Of a stretch of DNA of 64,000 nucleotides, positions 31,529-45,658 are shown piece after piece; the stretch's first letter is position 1; each line of letters starts with the position of its first letter. Made by a program: the position numbers and the translations under genes. This DNA comes from Geobacteraceae bacterium (GTDB lineage: Bacteria > Desulfobacterota > Desulfuromonadia > Geobacterales > Geobacteraceae), in contig JAMPXD010000002.1 of the NCBI GenBank assembly GCA_023701365.1, positions 1-64,000 on the forward strand, read 5' to 3'. The notes under the pieces were generated by a model. It ran no database searches and had not been told where the DNA came from. It was given only the letters and a program-made list of their open reading frames with translations.

Positions 31529-33130
31529 ATGTTTCAACAATTTCTAACTAAAGAGAGTCCCATAAGAGACAGAGTACCGCACGTGGAGAAACTGAGGATA
31601 TTTGTCAGCTCGGTTCAGAAAGAGCTCGAAAACGAACGCATCGCCATTACCGAGCTGGTTTCGTCCGATCCCTTTCTCGGTCGGCATGTGGAGGCAATTC
31701 TGTTCGAGGAGCTTCCGGCGTCGGCCATTTCTGCGGAGGCAGCCTATCTCAGCGCCCTGCATTCCTGTCACATATACATCGGGATTCTCGGCTTCGAATA
31801 CGGCCGTAAGGGTCCTGATGGCCTTTCCGCGACCCACCGGGAGTATACTGAGGCCAAGCGGCTGGGAATACCCACCTTCTTCTTCGTCAAAGGCGACAAT
31901 ACGCAGGATGGGCGCCGTGATGAGGAGATGAAGGCCCTTTTCGCCGAAATCCGCGATGAACAGCACGGCTATGTCTATAAGCGCTTCACCCACTACCAGA
32001 GCCTGAAATCATCCGTCCGGGCCGTGTTGCTCGCTGAACTCGAAAAACAGGGCATGCGCCCAACCTCCGAGGAGACGGCAATTGCCGAGCAAACCATTGC
32101 CCAAGCCTCCGATTTCGACTCCCGCCTCATGGAGCGCGCCGATATAGCCGAGCTGGACAAGGACCTGTGTCGCCGCTTTGTCGCGGCATGCACCGGCACC
32201 CCGGAGAAAGAGTTGGAGGAAGACAGCATTCGGAATACGCTGATGAACCGCGGGTTGATCTGGCAGAATGAAGACTCCAGGGCCATCCACCCGACGGCCG
32301 CCGGCCTGCTTCTGTTGGGGAGAAGTCCCGAGACCTTCTTCCCGCAGGTCCGCATTGCCGCCAACGCTTTCGGAGGAAAAGAACGGGGCGAACCGATTGA
32401 CCGCGAGGAAATCCGTGACGCCCTGCCCATCGCGATCGAGCGTACCTTTCAGTTCCTCAAGCGCAACATGCGGCACACCACGCGCATCGAGGGCTTCTCC
32501 AAGGTGGAAATTCATGAGTACCCCTATGAAGCCTTGCGGGAAGCCGTCGTCAATGCCGTTGCCCATCGTGACTACGATCTTGCCGGTTCAAGCATACGGG
32601 TGGAAAAGTATGCCGACCGCATCGAGATTGTCAGCCCCGGCCTCCCGCCTGAACCAATAACCCTGCAGAAGATCGAGCGGCTCGACTACATCGCCTGTTC
32701 CCGCAATCCGAATCTTGCCCGGGGGCTTTCATTTTTCGAGCGCATTGAAGAGCAGGGGGACGGCTTGCGCCGGATCGTGCGCGAGTCGGAAGGAATCGGC
32801 TTGTCACGTCCTCAGTTTCAGTTCCGAGACGGGCACTTCAAGGTCATCTTCTTTGCACCTGAGGATATGCTGAAGCTGAAGAGCCAGGGTGCCAGGCCGG
32901 TTTTCGAGGTGCCAATTGAGGTAGTGACCACATTGAATGAAACGCAAAAGACCATCCTCCGTGTATTGATCGAAAAGGGAGAGCTGACATCATCTGAGAT
33001 GTCTGAAATGTTGGGAGTGACCCCCCAGGCTATTCGGAAGTCTATGAATTACTTAAAAGTAAATGGCCTGGTCAGACAAATCGGCCAAGGCAAAAAGACG
33101 GTCTACGTGCTTGCCCAAAAAGACTCGTGA
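31529..33130 (+). CDS. DUF4062 / HATPase / winged-helix protein, defence-like
   Basis: A 533-residue protein. Residues about 20-135 are a DUF4062 domain (KLRIFVSSVQKELENER ... IYIGILGFEYGRKGPDGLSATHREY ... GIPTFFFVKGDN), a TIR-like Rossmann fold. Residues about 200-440 have the HATPase_c_4 arrangement often annotated as RecG-like (YPYEALREAVVNAVAHRDY, VEKYADRIEIVSPGLPP). The last 60 residues are a winged helix (LTSSEMSEMLGVTPQAIRKSMNYL). Such proteins sit in phage-defence and stress islands, but their mechanism is not established. Start ATG 31529 has a poor ribosome site; GTG 31583 is an alternative. It is followed by the nuclease-NTPase gene. Confidence 0.75.
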   Translation: MFQQFLTKESPIRDRVPHVEKLRIFVSSVQKELENERIAITELVSSDPFLGRHVEAILFEELPASAISAEAAYLSALHSCHIYIGILGFEYGRKGPDGLSATHREYTEAKRLGIPTFFFVKGDNTQDGRRDEEMKALFAEIRDEQHGYVYKRFTHYQSLKSSVRAVLLAELEKQGMRPTSEETAIAEQTIAQASDFDSRLMERADIAELDKDLCRRFVAACTGTPEKELEEDSIRNTLMNRGLIWQNEDSRAIHPTAAGLLLLGRSPETFFPQVRIAANAFGGKERGEPIDREEIRDALPIAIERTFQFLKRNMRHTTRIEGFSKVEIHEYPYEALREAVVNAVAHRDYDLAGSSIRVEKYADRIEIVSPGLPPEPITLQKIERLDYIACSRNPNLARGLSFFERIEEQGDGLRRIVRESEGIGLSRPQFQFRDGHFKVIFFAPEDMLKLKSQGARPVFEVPIEVVTTLNETQKTILRVLIEKGELTSSEMSEMLGVTPQAIRKSMNYLKVNGLVRQIGQGKKTVYVLAQKDS

Positions 33131-33552: not shown

Positions 33553-36500
33553 ATGTCGCTTCCAGGTGGACCAGCAGATAAACTCGGCAACCGCTACGAG
33601 TTATGGTGGACTGTCTCTCAGCTCGTTCGGATGCTCCATGGCCAAGCTGAGAGCATTCGTATAGAAGACCCTGGCGTCACGAAGGCGGAGTTTGTAATTG
33701 TCAGCCAAGGCCGGAGAGAGCTTCACCAAGCAAAGCGGAGCCATCAAGATGGGAAATGGAGCCTTAGTTCCCTCGCCGGCGCCGGCATTCTTGAGGCAAT
33801 TTTCACTCAACTGTCAGGTAATGATGGCCGTTTTACCTTTGTGTCGAGCAGCGACGCACGAGAACTTGCTGAACTGGCTGATCGTGCACGGCAGGCAGAG
33901 TCCCCGGCGGAATTTGAATCCCCTTTTCTCGATGCTAAGGAGATAAAAGCGGATTTTGAAAAACTGAAAACTAACTGGAGTAATACCGACCTTACGACTG
34001 CCTATGGAATACTGCGCCGAATTGAGGTGCGCACAATCGACGAGCGTAGCCTAGAAGAGCAGGTCCAATTGGGGCTCAGGTCGCTGTTTCTTCAGGATAC
34101 CGATGCTATTTCGGCTGAGTTAAGGCGGATTGCGGAGGACTCAATACACCGGACCATCACCCGTGATCAGCTTGTCACTCAACTTGGAGAACGTGGTTTC
34201 AGACTGCGTCGACTTCCAAGGCTGGAGGATGCTGCCGCACTCATCAGTGAAGTGACCGACCGATACATTGCGGTTGGAAAGAGGAAACTTATCCGAAAGT
34301 CGCTCATGTCCCGTGAGGCAACGCAAACGATCCTGCAACGGATCAGGGAGGAAAGCCGAGGCACTGATTTTATCCTCTCTGGCAGGGCCGGCTCTGGCAA
34401 ATCCGGATGTGTCATCGAACTAGTTGAAAGCCTCCGGGCAATGGAAATTCCTGTACTAGCTTTTCGCCTTGACCGCCTCGATCCCGTTACAACGAGTGTT
34501 GAACTGGGGCAACAGCTGGGGCTTGAAGAATCACCGACTCTTGTTCTTTCAGCGGCGGCCACAGGGTCCATGGCTGTACTAATTGTGGACCAGCTTGACG
34601 CCGTTAGCTCGACCTCTGGCCGCAACGCCGGGTTTCTCGATGCTATTGAGAATTTGATGGGTGAAGTTAGAGGCCTGCGGGACAAGCTGAAACTTCACGT
34701 AATAGTCGTATGCCGGACTTTCGATTGGGAGAACGACCATCGGTTGAGGCGGATGCTCGCAGAGAGCCACGAAAAAATTGAAGCCACTGAATTCTCACCG
34801 GACGTGGTAAGGACTATCCTCTCCGCTGAACGTTTTGACACTACACTATTTCAGCCGCGACAGTTGGAATTGCTGAGATTGCCACAAAATCTCTCCCTGT
34901 TTCTTGACATCGGTTTCGACCCACTGAGGGCTCCGGTGTTCAACACGGCAAAGGAACTTTTCGATCGTTACTGGGACACTAAACGTCGTGCGGTAGCTGA
35001 GCGAACTGCACCTTTGCCGGAGCAATGGCCGGACCTCATCCAGCTCCTTTGTGATGAGATGACTCGCACGCAACAGCTCTCCGTTCTCCGCGAGAAGCTG
35101 GACCGGTTTGCAAATGACTATGTCGCACAGATGGCTTCAGAAGGTGTTCTCACGTTCGACGGCAAGCGCTATGGATTTGGCCACGAAAGTTTTTTTGACT
35201 ACTGCTTTGCACGCTCTTTCGTCGCGAGGAACGAGCCGATAACAGAATTCCTCACTGCCTCAGAGCAACATCTTTTCCGGCGGGCACAGGTGAGGCAGGT
35301 TCTGACGTATCTTCGGGACGCTGACCGCCAGCGTTACTGCGCTGAGGTCCGCGCCATCCTCACGGACACACATGTCCGAACTCACCTTAAAGACCTCGCC
35401 ATAACCTTCATCACGAACCTATTAGACCCCGGTAACGATGAATGGGATGTGTTATATCCTTTGCTAGAATCTGAAGTGGCATCCTTAGGGACCGGTCAAC
35501 GCAACAGCGACAAGTTTGCCTCTCTTGTATGGCAGCATTTCTTTTCTTCATCGTTATGGTTTCATCTTGCCGACGAACGGGGCCTCATTGCTGCCTGGCT
35601 TGTATCTGATAATAATAGCCTTGCCAACATGGGGGTTACATACTTGCGGTTTCACCAAAGCCACTCAGGTGATAGGGTGGCTGAACTGCTGGAGCCTTAT
35701 GTTGGCGCTGGCGGCGAGTGGAGGAATCGGCTTCGATTTGTAATGGAATGGGCTGACCATGAAAACAGCCGCCGTTTTTTCGAACTGTTCCTTCGGCTCA
35801 TCGACGATGGCACTCTTGATGAGGCTCGTGGACCTATCGCCGTTAACAGCACTTTCTGGAGCATCCTCCATGGGTTAGCAGAGGCTCGCCCGGATTGGTT
35901 GCCTGAGGTAATCCGCCATTGGTTGACACGACGATTGCTGTTGGTCCAGCAGCAAATGCCGGAGGGTGCCAGGCGAAGATGGCGGGACATCTTTAATAAT
36001 GACGACTTCGCGAGCACGTATTTCGCTGGTGCAGCCGCCAAAGCACCGGAAGAATTCGTACAGAATGTACTGCAGGTTGTTTTGCAGATTTCTTCTGCAG
36101 CCCTTTACGAGGAAGAGGATAAAGCGCCCAGGCGAGATGCTGTTTGGCCGGCATTAATAAATGGGAACCCCTCTATTGATAGTGCTTGCATCAGTACTTT
36201 GGTCCATGCTTTGCGATCTTTGGCAAAAGAAAAGCCAGAGACGCTTGTTGATACGATCAGGGAACTCCGGACGCTCGATACTTATATCGCCAACTACTTG
36301 CTCATGAATATTTTCACTGCCGGCGCGATTTCCTTTGCCGATGAAGCTGTCAAAACAATTTGTGACCAGCCTTGGCGTTTGAACTGTGGATTTTCTGGCA
36401 GTCCTTACTGGATTTCGATGGAAGCAATTGCAGCAGTGATGCCGCATTGTTCGGAAGAAAGTCGAACAAAACTGGAGACGGTAATTTTGGCCTTTTCCCC

Positions 36501-38073
36501 TGAATACGAACGAAGGGCTGAGGGCATTAAGTTCGCTGGTAGGGCTTGTTTTGCGCTTTTATCTGCGATTCCGGCAGTATACCTGACCAGAGGGGGGCTT
36601 GCACGTTTCAATGAACTAGAGAGAAAGTTCGGGAAACCCTATGGGCCGCCTAAAGAACTCCGCGCCTACTCTGTCGGATCTCCAATACCGAAGGAAGCAG
36701 CTGAAAAAATGACAGACGAACAGTGGTTAATCGCCATTGCGAAATACCGCTTGGAGGATCGGTTTAATCGGTGGGACAATCTGGGAAAAGGGGGTGCAGC
36801 TGAGCTCGCGGGCATGCTGCGGGAGTATGCCAAAAACGAGCCGGAACGATTCGCCCGTTTGAGCTTGCAGTTCCCTGCAGACACAAATCCGGTCTACATT
36901 GAACGGACACTGGAGGGGCTGAAAGGGGCATCCGCCCCAATGGAGCTCAAACTTGAAGTCTGCCGTAAAGCATACGGGGAGTGCCGCGAGGGGTGCGGAA
37001 AAGCCATTGCCGATTTGCTCGGAAGTATTGACGAGACACTTCCGGAGGATGCCGTGCAAATGCTCAATTGGCTGGCAACGGAACACCCTGAACCGGATAG
37101 GGCTGAGGAGGAAACCCGTGGCGAAGTAAGTCACGGCAACGATTTCCATACCCGCGGCATGAATACTGCTCGTGGTCGTGCTGCGGAAGCAATCCGAGAT
37201 TTAATACATAGAGACTCCGATTATATCGAAAGATTTCAGCCTACTCTCGACCATCTAGCCAAAGACATCAGCATTCCTGTCCGCTCATGCTTTGCTTCGA
37301 CTTTGATTTCAGTTGGTTGGCACAACGCACCACTTGCAATGGAGCTTTTTCAAATCGCCGCCACTGACCAACGTTTGCTAGAGACCGAGTATGCCCAGCG
37401 ATTCATTTACTATCACCTTGCGGAACATTTTGATGAGTTGAGACCTTTTGTGGAGAAAATACTACGCTCAGACTTGCCGAATGTAAGTCGGGCTGGAGGG
37501 AGGCTGGCCAGCATAGCGGCTCTCTACCACGAGGAAGCTAGCGGTCTGGTAGAGGAGGCGATTTCCGGAACGCCTTCCCAACGGCATGGAGTTGCGGAAG
37601 TTGCCGCTGGTAATATCGCCGACGAGGAATGTCGTGCATGGTGCAAAGAACGCCTACTACATTTTTTCCACGACCCCGCCCCAGAAGTCAGGCGGGAGGC
37701 AGCATCGTGTTTTCGTCAGCTCCAAAATGAGCCATTGGAATCGTATGAGGATATTATAACTGCCTTTTGTGATAGCCCAGCCTATGAAGAGGATTCGTTC
37801 CCCATTCTCCATATATTAAAGGCGTCGTTGCGCCGACTGCCCGGCATCACATGCATGGTTTGCGAGAAATTCCTTTTGCGTTTCAGCGATGAAGCGAAGG
37901 ATATTCGTACCAGTCGGGCTGGAGATGTGCATACTGTTGTGAAACTCGTTTTCCGCACCTACCATCAGCATCAGAATGATGAATGGGCATCCCGCTGTCT
38001 CGACTTAATTGACCGTATGTGCCTGGAAGGCATCAGGGATGCATCAAAAGGATTCGATGAATATGAACGGTAG
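33553..38073 (+). CDS. Predicted nuclease-NTPase-alpha-solenoid defence protein (Cap4/STAND-like)
   Basis: A 1506-residue cytosolic protein. Residues 1-110 look like a Cap4/DUF4297-type PD-(D/E)xK nuclease: GNRYELWW with Glu16, Asp39 in RIEDPG, the QxK motif at 59-61 (ELHQAKR), then FTFVSSSDA. Residues about 250-560 are a P-loop NTPase: Walker A GRAGSGKS at 277-284, Walker B LIVDQLD at 343-349, and a sensor-like VVCRTFDWEN. From about 600 to the end the protein is helical, with HEAT-like units near the C-terminus (PEVRREAASCFRQL). This effector-switch-sensor order matches STAND anti-phage proteins such as Avs, where the repeats detect a phage protein. The exact family is not certain. It has a weak ribosome site (ggaaaggaac) ahead. 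Confidence 0.75.
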   Translation: MSLPGGPADKLGNRYELWWTVSQLVRMLHGQAESIRIEDPGVTKAEFVIVSQGRRELHQAKRSHQDGKWSLSSLAGAGILEAIFTQLSGNDGRFTFVSSSDARELAELADRARQAESPAEFESPFLDAKEIKADFEKLKTNWSNTDLTTAYGILRRIEVRTIDERSLEEQVQLGLRSLFLQDTDAISAELRRIAEDSIHRTITRDQLVTQLGERGFRLRRLPRLEDAAALISEVTDRYIAVGKRKLIRKSLMSREATQTILQRIREESRGTDFILSGRAGSGKSGCVIELVESLRAMEIPVLAFRLDRLDPVTTSVELGQQLGLEESPTLVLSAAATGSMAVLIVDQLDAVSSTSGRNAGFLDAIENLMGEVRGLRDKLKLHVIVVCRTFDWENDHRLRRMLAESHEKIEATEFSPDVVRTILSAERFDTTLFQPRQLELLRLPQNLSLFLDIGFDPLRAPVFNTAKELFDRYWDTKRRAVAERTAPLPEQWPDLIQLLCDEMTRTQQLSVLREKLDRFANDYVAQMASEGVLTFDGKRYGFGHESFFDYCFARSFVARNEPITEFLTASEQHLFRRAQVRQVLTYLRDADRQRYCAEVRAILTDTHVRTHLKDLAITFITNLLDPGNDEWDVLYPLLESEVASLGTGQRNSDKFASLVWQHFFSSSLWFHLADERGLIAAWLVSDNNSLANMGVTYLRFHQSHSGDRVAELLEPYVGAGGEWRNRLRFVMEWADHENSRRFFELFLRLIDDGTLDEARGPIAVNSTFWSILHGLAEARPDWLPEVIRHWLTRRLLLVQQQMPEGARRRWRDIFNNDDFASTYFAGAAAKAPEEFVQNVLQVVLQISSAALYEEEDKAPRRDAVWPALINGNPSIDSACISTLVHALRSLAKEKPETLVDTIRELRTLDTYIANYLLMNIFTAGAISFADEAVKTICDQPWRLNCGFSGSPYWISMEAIAAVMPHCSEESRTKLETVILAFSPEYERRAEGIKFAGRACFALLSAIPAVYLTRGGLARFNELERKFGKPYGPPKELRAYSVGSPIPKEAAEKMTDEQWLIAIAKYRLEDRFNRWDNLGKGGAAELAGMLREYAKNEPERFARLSLQFPADTNPVYIERTLEGLKGASAPMELKLEVCRKAYGECREGCGKAIADLLGSIDETLPEDAVQMLNWLATEHPEPDRAEEETRGEVSHGNDFHTRGMNTARGRAAEAIRDLIHRDSDYIERFQPTLDHLAKDISIPVRSCFASTLISVGWHNAPLAMELFQIAATDQRLLETEYAQRFIYYHLAEHFDELRPFVEKILRSDLPNVSRAGGRLASIAALYHEEASGLVEEAISGTPSQRHGVAEVAAGNIADEECRAWCKERLLHFFHDPAPEVRREAASCFRQLQNEPLESYEDIITAFCDSPAYEEDSFPILHILKASLRRLPGITCMVCEKFLLRFSDEAKDIRTSRAGDVHTVVKLVFRTYHQHQNDEWASRCLDLIDRMCLEGIRDASKGFDEYER

Positions 38074-38280: not shown

Positions 38281-39192
38281 ATGCAGCTCGATCTCTTTTG
38301 CGACAATCGCCGCACCATCCGGTTGAACGATGCCGGGGAGATGCTCCGTGCCCTCGATCTGGAGAAGGCCCTGGCCGTATATGCGGATTTGCTGAACGAC
38401 GCACCCGACGACAGGACCATCCGGCAGTTGCAAAGTTCGGTCGGGCAGTGGCGCGACACCCTCTCCCGTTTTCATGCTTGTCCCATGGGGAGTGGCCGTC
38501 TCCATGAGCTCTGGCTGAATTTGACGGATGGCACGCCGCCACAGTTGGCAGTCGGCGTTCTCGAGCTGCTGATTGCCGGATTGAAAGGACTCCCTGCACC
38601 GGAACTGATATTTGTCCCACCACGATTCCATATCGGCACGATCCTGATGGCACAGGAGAGATTTACGGATGCGGAGTTTTGGTTCTCCTGCGCCCTCACC
38701 AGTGGAATCGGAGAGCGAGCCCGTTTCCTCGGCTGGCGGGGCGATGCCCTGATGTTGCTCGGAGACGCCGGGAGGGCGAGGGAGTCCTATCTCGCCGCAT
38801 TCCTCGAAGAACCGCACGACGTGGACCTGACGTCGCAGAAAGACCGACTGATCCACAACCTCCTTTTCTCCCTGGAAAGCGAAGGAAGCGATGAAATAGC
38901 GGACGATGAAATCGTTTGCTGGCTCCCGGTCTGGGGGTGGCTGCACGGCGAGTTTGTCCTGAGCATGGAAGAAGTTGCGGCGGATAGCGATGCGTTTGCC
39001 GCCTCTCTTGAAAAGACCGAACGTCTGCGGGATATGACGCTGCCACGCGTCTGGTTCGATTATCTCCGGTATGCGGAGTACCTGCGGACTATGTGCCGCA
39101 ATGACCGGGAACTGGTGCGGGTGCGGCGCAGGATGCGGGAGCTGAGTGGCTTCATGTTCGACCGGTACATGGAGAAAGTCAGGGGCCGCTAG
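38281..39192 (+). CDS. TPR-like helical protein leading the Wadjet-like operon
   Basis: A 303-residue cytosolic protein. Two or three TPR-like helix pairs are visible: ALDLEKALAVYADLLNDAPDD near residue 25, FHIGTILMAQERFTDAEFWFSCAL near 120, and GWRGDALMLLGDAGRARESYLAAF near 145. No catalytic motif is seen. It ends 16 bases before the JetA-like gene in the same direction, so it is very likely the first gene of that operon. Standard Wadjet operons have four genes, so this is an added component, perhaps for target recognition or assembly. The ribosome site is poor. Confidence 0.7.
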   Translation: MQLDLFCDNRRTIRLNDAGEMLRALDLEKALAVYADLLNDAPDDRTIRQLQSSVGQWRDTLSRFHACPMGSGRLHELWLNLTDGTPPQLAVGVLELLIAGLKGLPAPELIFVPPRFHIGTILMAQERFTDAEFWFSCALTSGIGERARFLGWRGDALMLLGDAGRARESYLAAFLEEPHDVDLTSQKDRLIHNLLFSLESEGSDEIADDEIVCWLPVWGWLHGEFVLSMEEVAADSDAFAASLEKTERLRDMTLPRVWFDYLRYAEYLRTMCRNDRELVRVRRRMRELSGFMFDRYMEKVRGR

Positions 39193-39208
39193 GGATTCAG
39201 AGCAAGCC

Positions 39209-40426
39209 ATGGCCATCAACCCACAATCATTCTTCAACTTCGCCGCGCAGAATTACCCTCTTCTGCACGACATCTTCCGCAAAAGCGGCGGGATGAATGA
39301 CGCGGAGCTGTCCGACCTGATCCGGCGGCACCGCGTCGGCCTGGAATCCCCTTCCACCCTCATCGAAAAACTCATCAACCTCAAGATAATCGAACCGCTT
39401 CCCGATGCCACCGCCAGCTATGAAATGAGCAGGACGGTTTCCGTCTTGTTCCGCTTCCTGCTGCAGGAACAGCGTCTTACCTCGACCGCCGTCATCCATG
39501 CTTACCTGGATGAACTTGAACGGGCGCAAACCGACCTTGACCATGCCATTCGCGACGACAAGCACAGCCTGATCGAACGGGCGCTTGACGAGATCACCGA
39601 AACGATGGAGCGGATTCGCCAGGACTCGCGGGCCAACCGCGAGGCGATCATCAACGAGGTGATGACCGTCAAGTCGAACCGGGAGAAACGGACCGTTTCC
39701 GAGAGGTTCGAAAAGATTCTCCTTCTCTGGAACCATTACCTCGAACCCCTCAAAGACCTCATCGATGTCCGCAAAACCATGGATGCCTCGCTCGACAGCC
39801 TCGAACGGCTGCTGAAGCAGGGAGCGGAACAGTTTCTGCTGGACGGAGCGCTGCACCGGGAGTTCGCCCGCTGTTCGGTCCGCCTGGTGAGGCTCAGGCG
39901 CGACATGACGGCGGATTTCCACGAGTCCATGCACGAGGTGGAACCGCTCTATGTTTCCCTGAAACAGGACAGCTCGCTCGCCAGGGGCGTTGCGCGGGCG
40001 CTGGAGAGGATCGGCAAGGAAGGGATCAGGAGCCTCAACCTGCCGACGGCGCTGGCGCTTCGCACCGAAAGGCTGCGCGAGGGGCTGTTCGACAACACGG
40101 ACATCGAGGCCTTTCTGCACAATGTCCGCGGCTACCAGCCACAGGAACCGCCGGTGATCAACCTCGGGACGGAACTTCTTTCACCCCGATTTATTCCCCC
40201 GGACGAGCTCATCGACACGTTGCGGCAAGCGCTCCCCGTCGGCGATGTCCTGCAGTGGCTCCTCAATCGTTATGAGGGCTATCCTTTCCCCGAGCTGCTG
40301 CGGGCCTATGGCCGCATCTTCGGCAGCGATGCGTTTAAGGCCGGTTTTTCCAGAGAGGAAAAGAAATATCAATTACCCGGCATGACGGTCCACGCCCGTC
40401 CGTTGGCCGTGGAGGCAATGCCATGA
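39209..40426 (+). CDS. jetA: JetA/MukF-like subunit of a Wadjet-type complex
   Basis: A 405-residue protein. The N-terminal 80 residues look like a winged helix (GMNDAELSDLIRRHRVGLESPSTLIEKLINLKII). The centre is long-helical (ERALDEITETMERIRQDSRANREA), as in kleisin-type MukF/JetA proteins. It is assigned by position ahead of JetB-, SMC- and TOPRIM-like genes rather than by close family match; it resembles neither the DUF3375 (type I) nor the DUF5716 form I know. The last codons overlap the JetB-like start (ATGA). Confidence 0.65.
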   Translation: MAINPQSFFNFAAQNYPLLHDIFRKSGGMNDAELSDLIRRHRVGLESPSTLIEKLINLKIIEPLPDATASYEMSRTVSVLFRFLLQEQRLTSTAVIHAYLDELERAQTDLDHAIRDDKHSLIERALDEITETMERIRQDSRANREAIINEVMTVKSNREKRTVSERFEKILLLWNHYLEPLKDLIDVRKTMDASLDSLERLLKQGAEQFLLDGALHREFARCSVRLVRLRRDMTADFHESMHEVEPLYVSLKQDSSLARGVARALERIGKEGIRSLNLPTALALRTERLREGLFDNTDIEAFLHNVRGYQPQEPPVINLGTELLSPRFIPPDELIDTLRQALPVGDVLQWLLNRYEGYPFPELLRAYGRIFGSDAFKAGFSREEKKYQLPGMTVHARPLAVEAMP

Positions 40427-40968
40427 TCGATAACCCTTGCGACCTTCCCTACCTGGACGAGATTTTCCAGCGTCTCTGCCGCGGCAGGCATATCTGCGCG
40501 GAAGACGGTAACCATTATCACGCCCTGTATGACAACCTCGACCTGTACCAGCAGCTGTTCGACCGGCTGGGATTCCGCCTCGAGGCGCATCCCCGGGATT
40601 TTTACTATTTCCGCGGGGAAAAGACCCTGAGCGACGGCAGTTCGCGGATGGCGCTGTTCATCTTCATCCTGATGGAGTTTCTCGAAGGCCAGGGGGAACC
40701 GGTCGCCGAAAGCATCCTCACCAGGGAATTCGCCATTGCCGACATGCCCCACTTTTCCACGGAGCGGTATCGCCTCTACATGAAGGAGAGCGGCATTGCG
40801 GATCATGACGGTTTGGAAGGGGTGGTGAACAATCTGGAAAAATTCGGCTTTGCCGTGCGGAGAGGGGGCTCGTTCCGGTTCCGTTCCCCGGTGTACCGCT
40901 TTTTCGACATCTGCCATGCGATCCTGCAGGCCGATCAGAGACAGGCGGAGAGCGAGGTTTCTTCATGA
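40423..40968 (+). CDS. jetB: JetB/MukE-like subunit
   Basis: A 181-residue protein with paired winged-helix character (LDEIFQRLCRGRHICAEDGNHYHAL; NNLEKFGFAVRRGGSFRFRSPVYRFFD). The last segment is typical of the wHTH wing in MukE/JetB-like KITE proteins, which bridge the kleisin and the SMC heads. It overlaps both neighbours by 4 bases, so the subunits are translationally coupled. Confidence 0.7.
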   Translation: MIDNPCDLPYLDEIFQRLCRGRHICAEDGNHYHALYDNLDLYQQLFDRLGFRLEAHPRDFYYFRGEKTLSDGSSRMALFIFILMEFLEGQGEPVAESILTREFAIADMPHFSTERYRLYMKESGIADHDGLEGVVNNLEKFGFAVRRGGSFRFRSPVYRFFDICHAILQADQRQAESEVSS

Positions 40969-43679
40969 GCGTCGTAGGCCCTACCCGGCTGATCATCCTG
41001 AAGTCGGGCAAATACGATTACGGCGAAGTGGAACTCGTCCGGCCGCTGCATCTGGTCGGGCCGAACAACGTGGGGAAGACCTCCCTGATTGCGGCCCTCC
41101 AGTTTCTCTATATCGACGACCAGCGCCACATGCACTTCTCCCGGGACATGGACGACACCAGGCGCTACTATTTCCCCGATCCGAACAGCTACATCCTGTT
41201 CGAATGCCTGACCCCCACCGGCTACCGGGTGGTCGGCGTCCAGGGGCTCGGCCCCCTCAAACGGTACGAGTTCAGAAGGTTCAGCTATCAGGGTAAGTTC
41301 GACATCGCCGACTTCCTGGATGAATCGGGCAAGTTGCGCCAGGAGGATGAAATCCGGGGGCTCTTGGCCGACCGGGATTATCGGAAGCTTGAACCGAACC
41401 AGTTGAAGGCGGCGCTGACCGGCAGCGGCGAAAACAACGGCGTTCATCTCGGCCTCGTGCCGACCCGCGACAGCGACGCCTATCGTCGGTTTCGCCGGGT
41501 GTTCAGCAACCTCCTCCGGTTGGCCCATCTGAGCCAGGAAGACCTGAAGCGGTTCCTGTACGAAATCTACGAATCCGAGTTCAAGCAGAAGAGCATCGAT
41601 CTCGAGACCGGCTATTCGAGCCAGTTTGAAAAGGTGAAACGGCTGGCCGACGAGGTGCGCGGGCTGCAGGCGGTGGCCGACGACATCCGGCGAGCGCTCC
41701 TTTTGGCCGCCGAACGGGACGAGGTCCGCGGCAATCTGCCGCTCCTTTTCGCCAATATCGGCCGCGCCTGGGAAGAGATCCGGGCCGAGCTCGTCGAGTC
41801 GCGGGAAAGGCTCAATCTGCAGCTGGAGCAACTCGCCGGCAAGGAGAGTCAGGCGAAGGAGGAGCACCGGGATACTGAACAGTCGATGAGGTCGCTCGAC
41901 CAGCAATTGGGGACGCTCAAGAGGGACCTCAAGAACATCGAGCAGGAGAAGACCGAATTCCGGGATTATCTTGCCGACATCGAGAATGCCAAGATCGCCA
42001 ACCTCAAGACCCAGATCGAGGAAGTCGGCTATCTGTTGAAAAACGCCGTGCAGGAGCCTGCCGCCCGGGTAGCCGCACGCATCGCGTCGCACGAGAAGGA
42101 GTTGGCAGCCCAAAGGAGGCTTCTGGAAGGGATCACCCGGACAGCGGCGACAAAACTGAAGGGATTGTGCGGCGAGGCAGACCTGAAGCAGGCGTTTCGG
42201 CTCCTGAACCACAAGGTTCTCGGCCTCCAGTTGGGCGCCGACGGCCTGCAAATCGACGATGAAGTCGGGCTGCAGGCGCGGATCAAGGCCATCTCGGAGA
42301 GAATGGCCGCTGGTGTTTACCATGACGGCGCCGTGACGCTATCCCTTGCCTCGCTAGACCCCCCTTGTCTCGAGGAATATACCGATCCGGCGTTGATCGC
42401 CGAAAAGATCAAGGTGCTCGAAGAAACGGTGGCGCGGGATAAAAAGACGCTCCAGGCTGCGGAAGAAGCCGAAAAACTGTCCTCCCAAAAAAAGGCGTTG
42501 GAGCAGGAACACGAGGAACTCACGGAGAAACGCCGTCGTTTCTCGGTGTTCCAGGAGAACCTGGCCAAGGCCAAGGAATGGCAAAAGGAGCATGACCAGC
42601 TGGAAAAGAAGAGTTCCCAGTATGCCGAGCGTCTGAACAACTTGAGGGAAATGCAGCGGGAGATAGACAGGGAAAGGATTGGTATCAAGGGGCGCCTTAC
42701 GCAATCCGTCACCAAGGAAGAGAAATATCTGGAAGACATCCGCTTGGTGCAGCGCCCGGACCTGTCTTGGGCGCAGGGTGGGACTCTCCAGCTCCCCGCT
42801 TCCTTCGAGGAGATGCATGCCGTCTATCTCGAATTGCATGCCAGACAGAAGGCCCTCGATGCGGAACTCGGGAACAGATTGCTGGTGATCGACAGCCGGA
42901 CATACGGCCGCAGCAAAGGCGACTCCGAGGCGGAGACGTTGCGGATACTCGGGGAAGAGCTGGATGCGCTCGCGCAAAAGGAGGAAGCCGCCGAAAAGCT
43001 CTGGTCCGGGCTCGCCGCCGGCCTGCAGAGCTCCATCAAGAACATGCTCGGCGATCTGGACAGATTGAGGGGAAAGGTCGAGGACCTCAACCGCCAGCTG
43101 GCCAAGGTATCCGTGTCGAATCTGCAGAGGCTGCGCCTGGAGCTGGACGAGAACGACCAACTGGTGCCTTGGCTGAAGAAGGTCATTCGCCAGGAGGACT
43201 CCCCCCTGTTCGCCTCAACCCAGGATACCAGTGAAGCATACGGGTGCATCGGCGAGTTTCTGCGAAAATCGGGACGGATCGAATTGCGCCAGCTGTTCGA
43301 GCTCAAATTCGTCGTGACCACGGCGGACGGGAAAGAGCGGGAGTACGCGAAACTGGAAAGCATCGAGTCGAACGGCACGACGATCACCATCAAGGTGCTC
43401 ATCAATTTGATGCTGCTGCGTGGACTTCTGGACAACCGCAAGGAGGTCAGCATCCCGTACTACCTCGACGAAGCGTCGAGTCTCGACCAGGACAACGCCA
43501 GCGCCATTGTTCGGCAGTCGCGGATACTGGGTTTCACCCCTGTCCTTGCCAGTCCGGAGGCGATGGATGCCGCCGACAACCTCTATTTCCTCAAGGACAA
43601 CGGCGGCCGGCTCATCCTCGATTCAAGCGCGTTGGTGCGAATCCACCGGGAGGAGACCGATGAAGTCTGGCCCACTTGA
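40965..43679 (+). CDS. jetC: JetC: SMC/MukB-like ATPase
   Basis: A 904-residue protein. Walker A GPNNVGKTS sits at 32-40. Two long coiled-coil regions (about 240-390 and 480-600) surround a hinge-like middle. The C-terminal head has Walker B SIPYYLDEASSLDQDN near residue 835 and FTPVLASPEAMDAAD. Head-coil-hinge-coil-head order is that of SMC proteins. In Wadjet the SMC complex extrudes DNA loops and marks small circular DNA for cutting. It is shorter than the about 1100 residues of type I JetC. It overlaps jetB by 4 and jetD by 20 bases. Confidence 0.88.
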   Translation: MSVVGPTRLIILKSGKYDYGEVELVRPLHLVGPNNVGKTSLIAALQFLYIDDQRHMHFSRDMDDTRRYYFPDPNSYILFECLTPTGYRVVGVQGLGPLKRYEFRRFSYQGKFDIADFLDESGKLRQEDEIRGLLADRDYRKLEPNQLKAALTGSGENNGVHLGLVPTRDSDAYRRFRRVFSNLLRLAHLSQEDLKRFLYEIYESEFKQKSIDLETGYSSQFEKVKRLADEVRGLQAVADDIRRALLLAAERDEVRGNLPLLFANIGRAWEEIRAELVESRERLNLQLEQLAGKESQAKEEHRDTEQSMRSLDQQLGTLKRDLKNIEQEKTEFRDYLADIENAKIANLKTQIEEVGYLLKNAVQEPAARVAARIASHEKELAAQRRLLEGITRTAATKLKGLCGEADLKQAFRLLNHKVLGLQLGADGLQIDDEVGLQARIKAISERMAAGVYHDGAVTLSLASLDPPCLEEYTDPALIAEKIKVLEETVARDKKTLQAAEEAEKLSSQKKALEQEHEELTEKRRRFSVFQENLAKAKEWQKEHDQLEKKSSQYAERLNNLREMQREIDRERIGIKGRLTQSVTKEEKYLEDIRLVQRPDLSWAQGGTLQLPASFEEMHAVYLELHARQKALDAELGNRLLVIDSRTYGRSKGDSEAETLRILGEELDALAQKEEAAEKLWSGLAAGLQSSIKNMLGDLDRLRGKVEDLNRQLAKVSVSNLQRLRLELDENDQLVPWLKKVIRQEDSPLFASTQDTSEAYGCIGEFLRKSGRIELRQLFELKFVVTTADGKEREYAKLESIESNGTTITIKVLINLMLLRGLLDNRKEVSIPYYLDEASSLDQDNASAIVRQSRILGFTPVLASPEAMDAADNLYFLKDNGGRLILDSSALVRIHREETDEVWPT

Positions 43680-44523
43680 TTCCCTGGCGAGACACCTGGC
43701 GACCCTTTCGGACAGCTCCTCGCTCCCTGCCAGCAGTGTGTCCAAAGCTGACCGGCAGCGGCTCCGGACCCTTTTCGATGCCGGCGTCATCGAAGAAGTG
43801 AGATCGGGCGCCGGCCGTCGCCTTGTGGTGACGAACCAGACGGCCCTGCGGGCGTTTGTCCGCTCGCTTTATCCGTCGGGGCTGGAAGGATCCAAGGGGG
43901 ATCTCCCGGCAAGGAGCAGGGCCGTTGCCGAGCGCAGGGACTCGAAAAAGACAATCGGGAAGAGGCCAACAATATTACTGGTCCGTGGGTTCAATGGCTG
44001 CGCTTTCCAGAAGGATGAGTCACAGTTGTCCGTGGCCGAGTGGACCAGGAGTGCGGGGGTGGCGTCTCTTTGCCTGGATGCGATTGCAGAATGGCAATGT
44101 CGGGGGACACTGGGCCTCGTGGAGAACCTGGAGACCTTCTGGCATATCGAGGGAATAGCCCCGTTTGTCGATCTGGCAATCTATGCTGAAGGGAGAATCG
44201 GCGCCGATGTCCTCGATTGGCTCAGCTCTCCGGGTATGATCGGAACCAGGGTGGTTCATTTTCCGGACTATGACCCTGTCGGGATGGATGAGTACTTGCG
44301 AATCAAACGCGCATGTCCGGAGAGGACGGAACTCTTCCGGCCTCCTGATCTGGAAAAGCTCTTTACTCGCTATGGAAAGGCGCAACTGCTGCATGATAAT
44401 AGTGCTGTTCTAGCCAGGCTGCGGAAATGTGCCGACAGTGAAGTCCGTTATGTGGTGGAGCTGATGGATCGATTCGGGGTTGGTCTGGAGCAGGAGGCGA
44501 TCATGATTGATCTGACATTATGA
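43660..44523 (+). CDS. jetD: JetD: TOPRIM-like nuclease subunit
   Basis: A 287-residue protein. ATG 43660 follows ggaggagaccg and lies inside the jetC end. Residues 1-75 form a helix-turn-helix-like region (SSVSKADRQRLRTLFDAGVIEEV). The C-terminal part carries the TOPRIM signature: catalytic Glu in VENLETFWHIE, then YAEGRIGADVLDWL, then DxD in HFPDYDPVGMDEY, as in DUF2220/DUF2399 proteins. JetD cuts the DNA in Wadjet systems. It is shorter than type I JetD and lacks a clear DUF3322 front domain. Confidence 0.82.
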   Translation: MKSGPLDSLARHLATLSDSSSLPASSVSKADRQRLRTLFDAGVIEEVRSGAGRRLVVTNQTALRAFVRSLYPSGLEGSKGDLPARSRAVAERRDSKKTIGKRPTILLVRGFNGCAFQKDESQLSVAEWTRSAGVASLCLDAIAEWQCRGTLGLVENLETFWHIEGIAPFVDLAIYAEGRIGADVLDWLSSPGMIGTRVVHFPDYDPVGMDEYLRIKRACPERTELFRPPDLEKLFTRYGKAQLLHDNSAVLARLRKCADSEVRYVVELMDRFGVGLEQEAIMIDLTL

Positions 44524-44536
44524 ATAGCGCGCCTGC

Positions 44537-45658
44537 TCAGATCGCCACCCCCCTGCTTTCCCGCTCGATCTTGTCCACCACGCAGTAAATCCCCCCTTCC
44601 TTCAGCCCCGGCTTGAAGCAGCCGTTGCAGGAGATGCAGCGGGCCCGGGCCTCGTTCCCCTCCTCCCAGCGCCGCGGCAGATGGGGCTCACGGATCAGGG
44701 GGCGGGCGAGTGCCACGTAATCTGCCTCCTCCCGGCGGATCACCCCCTCCACGAGCTCGAAGGTCCTGAACCCCCCGACCACCATCACCGGACACCCCAC
44801 CCCGTTCTTGATCCTGGCCGCCAGCGGCAGGTTGTAGGCCTCCTGCTCCCGTCGGTCGATCCCCTGGCGGACCGGGGTCTCCTCCCCAGAGGCGGGGGTG
44901 CCGCCGCTCACCTCGATGGCGTCCACTCCCTCCTCATCTAGCGCCCGGGCGGCAAACAGGGCGTCGTCCGGCTGCAGTCCCCCCTCCAGGTTGTCGGCGC
45001 CGTTCAGCTTTACCAGCACCGGGAAGTCCTTCCCCACCGCGTGCCGCGTGCTCCGGTAGCATTCCAGCAGGAAGCGGCACCTGCGCTCCATGCTGCCGCC
45101 GTAAGCATCCTCCCGCCGGTTGGTGAGGGGGGAGAGGAACTGGTTGATCAGGTAGCCGTGGGCCGCATGGAGCTGCACCGCGTCGAAGCCGAACTCCCTG
45201 GCGCGCGCCGCGCCCTCGCCGAACAGGCGGACCAGGGCCTCGATGTCGGCGAGGGGAAGCTCCGCGGGGAGTTCCGGGAACTGCTTTGCTTCAATAGCCG
45301 ACGGCGCCACCGGCCGGGTGCCGGTTACCCTGGCGGAGCTCTGTCCACCGCAGTGGACCAGCTGGAGGCAGATCTTTCCCCCTTCCCCGTGCACGGCCCG
45401 GGTCAGGGCCCGCATCTGGTCGGCAAAGCCGCTGTGTATCCCCATCTGGCCGGGGAGTTGCCTGCCGTCGGGGCGGATGAAGGTGTAGCCGGTGACGAGC
45501 AGGCCGGCCCCACCCCTGGCCAGGTTGGCATAGTAGACGGCGAGCTTCGGGCTGGGGCGGCCGTCCTCCTCGCACATCCCCTCCCAGGTGGCGGAGCGGA
45601 CCAGCCGGTTGGCCAGGGTCATGCCGTTGATCCGCGTCTCGTCGAATATCTTCCGCAT
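44537..45658 (-). CDS. Old-yellow-enzyme family NADH:flavin oxidoreductase
   Basis: A 373-residue FMN-dependent TIM-barrel protein. Family motifs are clear: NRLVRSATWEGM near the start, QLVHCGGQS, HAAHGYLINQFLSPLTN (FMN and active site), REDAYGGS and VGGFRT. The C-terminus has CISCNGCFKPG, like the 4Fe-4S-binding cysteines of 2,4-dienoyl-CoA-reductase-type members, but the protein lacks the second NAD domain of those larger enzymes. The substrate cannot be read from sequence. It is convergent with the jet operon, 13 bases apart. Confidence 0.88.
   Translation of the reverse strand: MRKIFDETRINGMTLANRLVRSATWEGMCEEDGRPSPKLAVYYANLARGGAGLLVTGYTFIRPDGRQLPGQMGIHSGFADQMRALTRAVHGEGGKICLQLVHCGGQSSARVTGTRPVAPSAIEAKQFPELPAELPLADIEALVRLFGEGAARAREFGFDAVQLHAAHGYLINQFLSPLTNRREDAYGGSMERRCRFLLECYRSTRHAVGKDFPVLVKLNGADNLEGGLQPDDALFAARALDEEGVDAIEVSGGTPASGEETPVRQGIDRREQEAYNLPLAARIKNGVGCPVMVVGGFRTFELVEGVIRREEADYVALARPLIREPHLPRRWEEGNEARARCISCNGCFKPGLKEGGIYCVVDKIERESRGVAI

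Follow-up and report, generated by a model that had tools for sequence, protein, structure and literature searches.

The window analysed here comprises 64,000 nucleotides (positions 1 to 64,000 of contig JAMPXD010000002.1 in assembly GCA_023701365.1, Geobacteraceae bacterium), and it carries at 38281-44523 five tightly packed open reading frames on one strand, all of them intact (Table 1). They encode a TPR-like protein, a kleisin, a KITE subunit, an SMC ATPase and a TOPRIM nuclease. The stop codon of the TPR-like gene and the start of the kleisin gene are separated by a 16-bp gap, and the TPR-like gene is probably co-transcribed with the genes that follow it. The kleisin and KITE genes overlap by 4 bp (ATGA), as do the KITE and SMC genes (ATGA), and the SMC and TOPRIM genes overlap by 20 bp. 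The gene positions and the gap given in a preliminary description of this DNA were found again, and the JetA/JetB/SMC/TOPRIM logic proposed there corresponds to what we observe, a kleisin-KITE-SMC-TOPRIM order typical of JetABCD-type SMC-nuclease modules.

Downstream, an opposite-strand, flavin-oxidoreductase-like host gene lies at 44537, 13 bp past the operon end. Upstream of the operon are a gene with DUF4062, HATPase_c_4 and HTH domains (31529-33130) and a gene for a 1506-aa NTPase related to the PADLOC candidate PDC-M54A (33553-38073), both of which were probably acquired as island genes. Because of these two upstream genes, the setting of the module looks like a small defence island. The third-position GC of the NTPase gene is 0.52, compared with 0.7-0.9 in its surroundings.

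Table 1 Features of the operon and a further member of the TPR family
Feature	Position	Strand	Remark
TPR-like protein	38281-39192	+	303 aa; neighbour of the module in a short-gap operon
QLDLF, residues 2-6 of the TPR-like protein	38284-38298	+	candidate beta-clamp-binding-type motif; pattern in homologues and consensus
Kleisin (JetA / MksF role)	39209-40426	+	405 aa
KITE subunit (JetB / MksE role)	40423-40968	+	181 aa
SMC ATPase (JetC / MksB role)	40965-43679	+	904 aa
SMC Walker A GPNNVGKT, residues 32-39	41058-41081	+	alignment A1
SMC Walker B Asp835-Glu836	43467-43472	+	invariant in alignment A1
TOPRIM nuclease (JetD / MksG role), compact form	43660-44523	+	287 aa
DNA common to the window and the four closest modules (mobile four-gene unit)	39207-44512	+	blastn and edge alignments
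TPR family member	L165:5012-5968		starts QLSLF

Families of the four core proteins

The kleisin aligned through residues 49-378 with NCBIfam NF040857, a 412-aa Mks kleisin model (62 bits, E 4e-17), and an iterated profile recovered full-length homologues in ~45 loci at E<1e-90; judged from these profiles, the protein is a member of the known MksF kleisin family and no orphan. The KITE subunit matched the MksE family of Pfam (PF21980) with 108.8 bits against a cut-off of 27 and reached only 13.8 bits with DUF4194; the Pfam scan also gave a weak MukE match. The SMC protein matched the 926-position model NF040859 from residue 5 to residue 866 (242 bits, E 8e-72), and since the equivalog cut-off of this model is 1900 bits, the protein ranks as a relative rather than an equivalog. 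Both the kleisin and the SMC protein fall short of narrow equivalog cut-offs despite full-length homology. Residues G32, P33, N34, N35, G37, K38 and T39 of the SMC protein, together with its Walker B residues, are invariant among the five sequences of alignment A1. The names of the two NCBIfam models appear to be swapped with respect to common usage: NF040857, which matches the kleisin, is named MksB, and NF040859, which matches the SMC protein, is named MksF.

When the PDB was searched by sequence with single proteins and profiles, no true relative of the SMC protein was found, one run yielding coiled-coil chance matches, nor was any true relative of the nuclease, for which a structure model was needed. 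The AlphaFold2 model of the nuclease (pLDDT 91.7) matched C. glutamicum MksG best (8b7f, Z 13.7), followed by topoisomerase VI-A (Z 13.6) and P. aeruginosa JetD (7til, Z 12.7), while the next, unrelated rows stood at Z of about 7. The good match to MksG and JetD is limited to residues 100-287, the N-terminal part being a generic winged helix. The winged helix and TOPRIM fold are shared with topoisomerase VI A and Spo11 (Z 13.6 and 11.4), but identity to these proteins is only 11-15%, and the window nuclease, unlike them, is encoded in an SMC operon. In the Pfam JetD_C family it scored 18 bits, below the cut-off of 22, whereas its relative in locus L020 passed with 25.2. The catalytic-type residues E155 and D203-x-D205 (E-DxD) are invariant in 22 nuclease homologues. 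On the predicted structure, therefore, the protein is a JetD/MksG-like TOPRIM nuclease, with its catalytic residues intact.

Relatives, mobility and the SMC tree

A scan of the genome collection gave 44 loci, and with iterated profiles nearly all of those with enough sequence encode kleisin, KITE, SMC and TOPRIM proteins in the same order. The four closest modules (L048-L051) consist of exactly the same four genes and are 79-89% identical in DNA by blastn, a conservation which shows that the coding signal is real. Their homology to the window runs from 39207 to about 44495-44512, with none elsewhere in the window, and edge alignments place the borders of the shared DNA 2 bp before the kleisin ATG and at the end of the nuclease gene. 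The flanks of the four modules are unrelated to those in the window: one lies behind McrB/McrC and an N6-methyltransferase (L048), one has a C5-methyltransferase further upstream (L049), one lies behind a helicase (L050), and one has Schlafen-AlbA and KAP NTPase genes upstream (L051). The four genes thus move together from one island to another. Less closely related members are found on plasmids of Salinibacter, Pseudomonas and Neptuniibacter, and genomes of Desulfobacterota, Elusimicrobia, Kiritimatiellia and Salinibacteraceae carry the same four-gene core. Within the phylum the module is patchy (6 of 297 genomes), and in two related MAGs its copies have decayed by stops and deletions (L021/L090 and L022/L091). 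A scan of viral contigs with the SMC protein gave no match.

We placed the SMC protein in an IQ-TREE phylogeny of SMC head domains (56 sequences, LG+F+R4; types II and III absent). It falls in a 40-member, mostly nuclease-bearing clade (UFBoot 96), which is sister to a Pseudomonadota MksB clade holding the Pseudomonas-type MksBEF condensins, with a UFBoot of 98 for the joint clade. Type I JetC (UFBoot 97) and MukB branch apart from both. MukBEF shares the kleisin-KITE-SMC architecture of the window, but it has no nuclease, its SMC protein is much longer (~1490 aa), and its branch in the tree is a separate one. The nearest branch, that of Pseudomonas-type MksBEF, is also the most similar in build, with an SMC protein of ~900-930 aa, a kleisin of ~405-410 aa, an MksE-type KITE and the same gene order. 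We conclude that the four genes make up a true SMC-nuclease module, which belongs to the MksB family and has the order MksF-E-B-G.

In contrast to the window, no nuclease gene was detected near the condensin loci L119/L120 and L121 of the Pseudomonadota clade. These loci branch at two places among nuclease-bearing ones, namely L024 and L122, and L025, L026, L123 and L124 (support 72-100). Because condensins lacking the nuclease nest in this way among nuclease-bearing loci, moderate backing is gained for a published proposal in which MksBEF descends from defence modules that lost JetD.

The MksBEF of P. aeruginosa acts in chromosome organisation. As this is the closest characterised kin of the window module, a chromosomal role is conceivable, in which the module would be an MksBEF-type chromosome-folding condensin that has retained a nuclease and serves mainly in chromosome segregation. 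We consider this unlikely, because the module is patchily distributed, sits in defence islands and on plasmids, is decaying in two genomes and keeps its nuclease residues intact, features that point to a defence cassette rather than a housekeeping condensin. Our preferred reading, which we hold with good though not full confidence, is that the four genes form a self-contained anti-plasmid module of the Wadjet/MksBEFG kind, residing in a defence island.

The TPR-like gene and its family

The preliminary description suggested that the TPR-like protein could be an extra subunit of the system. The TPR label itself is weak but plausible: the protein scored 21.3 bits with Pfam TPR_2, below the cut-off of 27 bits, other TPR models of Pfam were likewise weak, and no family of NCBIfam or PHROG was matched. 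AlphaFold2, run from two sequences, gave no usable model (pLDDT 44.6). The protein belongs to a sparse family (alignment A4) with varied gene neighbourhoods, most of whose full-length members have an N-terminal QLxLF-type motif. One lies between cas3 and cas1 in a type I-B operon (L041:3781-4737), another some 1.5 kb ahead of a type I-C operon (L042:6741-7709), and a second family gene of the window's own genome is found 28 bp before dinB (L038:778-1689). Of the two MAGs with decayed modules, G270 has a second, truncated copy (L169:1928-2242).

A five-subunit Wadjet subtype, with the TPR-like protein as accessory subunit, for example as a recruiter whose QLDLF motif connects the SMC motor with the replication clamp, would account for the narrow gap on the same strand. 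A family member adjoins the module in 3 of about 45 loci, and full-length members occur in only about 15 of the 297 genomes of the phylum, which makes chance adjacency improbable a priori. The co-occurrence of TPR gene and module has a P of 0.02, but of 0.18 when two related genomes are collapsed to one, so that what is left of the association is weak. The arrangement, on the other hand, differs every time, and two of the three modules are decayed: the gene is upstream on the same strand in the window, intact but upstream and divergent in L090, and a remnant downstream in L091, the latter two loci belonging to one bacterial family other than the window's. Neither the four closest modules nor about 40 others have the gene next to them, and a single-sequence search with the window protein, which distant members could escape, found none anywhere in the genomes of those four. 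Most family members sit elsewhere, such as inside the type I-B cas operon, and the conserved DNA of the module begins only just before the kleisin ATG. No fifth gene recurs, there being no neighbour shared by more than 5 of 49 loci. A five-subunit system is, for these reasons, quite improbable. The possibility that contig ends make the gene seem missing was considered and rejected, since upstream sequence reaches 1 kb or more in 42 of the 49 loci. The TPR-like gene neighbours the module by chance or through the island and does not count among its conserved genes. Lack of conservation beside the module was named in the preliminary description as evidence against its proposal, and on that test the extra subunit is refuted.

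Most full-length homologues keep Q-L/I-x-L-F at the N-terminus, with MQLDLF in the window, QLSLF in L041, L040 and L165, and QLDLF in L043. Binding to the beta clamp occurs through a motif with the consensus QLxLF (PMC4549789), and the QLDLF of the window protein is, as a lead from its sequence, a candidate for such a motif. A search of the termini of the four core proteins gave no clamp-type motif. It is conceivable, though we think it very improbable, that the TPR-like protein is an optional partner through which the replication clamp is linked with the SMC nuclease and, in other genomic settings, with CRISPR-Cas or DNA polymerase IV; if so, this link would steer defence by where replication happens.

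Relation to the Wadjet types and proposed function

None of the PADLOC JetA and JetB models matched the window even at E<=10, and the best JetC1 match to the SMC protein (5e-6) covered the coiled coil only, accompanied by a weak JetD1 match. Using the same library, known DUF3375- and DUF5716-type systems scored 0 to 1e-270 for JetC, 1e-231 (DUF3375) and 1e-110 (DUF5716) for JetA, and 1e-177 and 1e-107 for JetD, so the miss does not stem from lack of power. Neither the JetA1 (DUF3375/DUF5716) nor the JetB1 (DUF4194) model of PADLOC type I is matched; the module also falls outside the JetA, JetB, JetC and JetD models of types II and III, with JetC2 and JetC3 giving coiled-coil matches only (E 1.5e-3 and 4.7e-4), in a comparison that had no type II or III genome as positive control. 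A type II/III JetC search across the phylum found no match, its controls being silent as well, and in a JetC1 search with a permissive threshold most matches were coiled-coil noise, a single one being a real type I system (G025). Locus L119, which scores above the NCBIfam condensin cut-off, is also missed by PADLOC.

The module shares the kleisin-KITE-SMC-TOPRIM order, the TOPRIM fold and E-DxD with Wadjet type I/MksBEFG of C. glutamicum and P. aeruginosa PA14, but differs from it in lacking matches to the JetA (DUF3375/DUF5716) and JetB (DUF4194) families, in its SMC protein (904 aa versus ~1100 aa) and in its nuclease (287 aa versus ~370-415 aa). That it is nevertheless a divergent, ordinary member of PADLOC type I (DUF3375/DUF4194) is hardly credible, since the common four-gene logic and order and the faint JetC1 and JetD1 matches are set against a JetC1 score far below those of known JetC and a type I JetC clade of its own. 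Of what had been proposed from the sequence alone, the unlikeness of the JetA-like protein to DUF3375 and DUF5716 is thus borne out, and JetC and JetD are indeed short next to type I, although their size is normal for the MksB family. The suggested undescribed subtype survives in part: the module lies outside all three PADLOC types and groups with MksB, outside the type I clade of a tree that did not include types II and III, but it has no extra subunit.

In the type I Wadjet studied, an SMC dimer-of-dimers extrudes loops until, on small circles, no DNA is left, and this triggers the nuclease (PMC10586767). By homology to such Wadjets, the kleisin and KITE subunits of the window module would hold two SMC ATPase dimers together as a motor, which would load on DNA and extrude loops. 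If the DNA is a small circle, this motor would run out of it, so that the TOPRIM nuclease would be activated and cut, while the large chromosome would escape cutting.

The module is probably a machine of a known general kind, a DNA-looping motor joined to a DNA cutter, of a lineage missed by standard defence-gene models. It fills a gap between the defence Wadjets and the Pseudomonas MksBEF condensin: the nuclease is kept in a whole clade of MksB-family complexes, and condensins lacking it branch at two places among nuclease-bearing relatives, which makes the idea of nuclease loss testable. Because PADLOC 2.0 misses this lineage, plasmid defence is probably underestimated in surveys that cover Desulfobacterota, Elusimicrobia, Kiritimatiellia and Salinibacteraceae.
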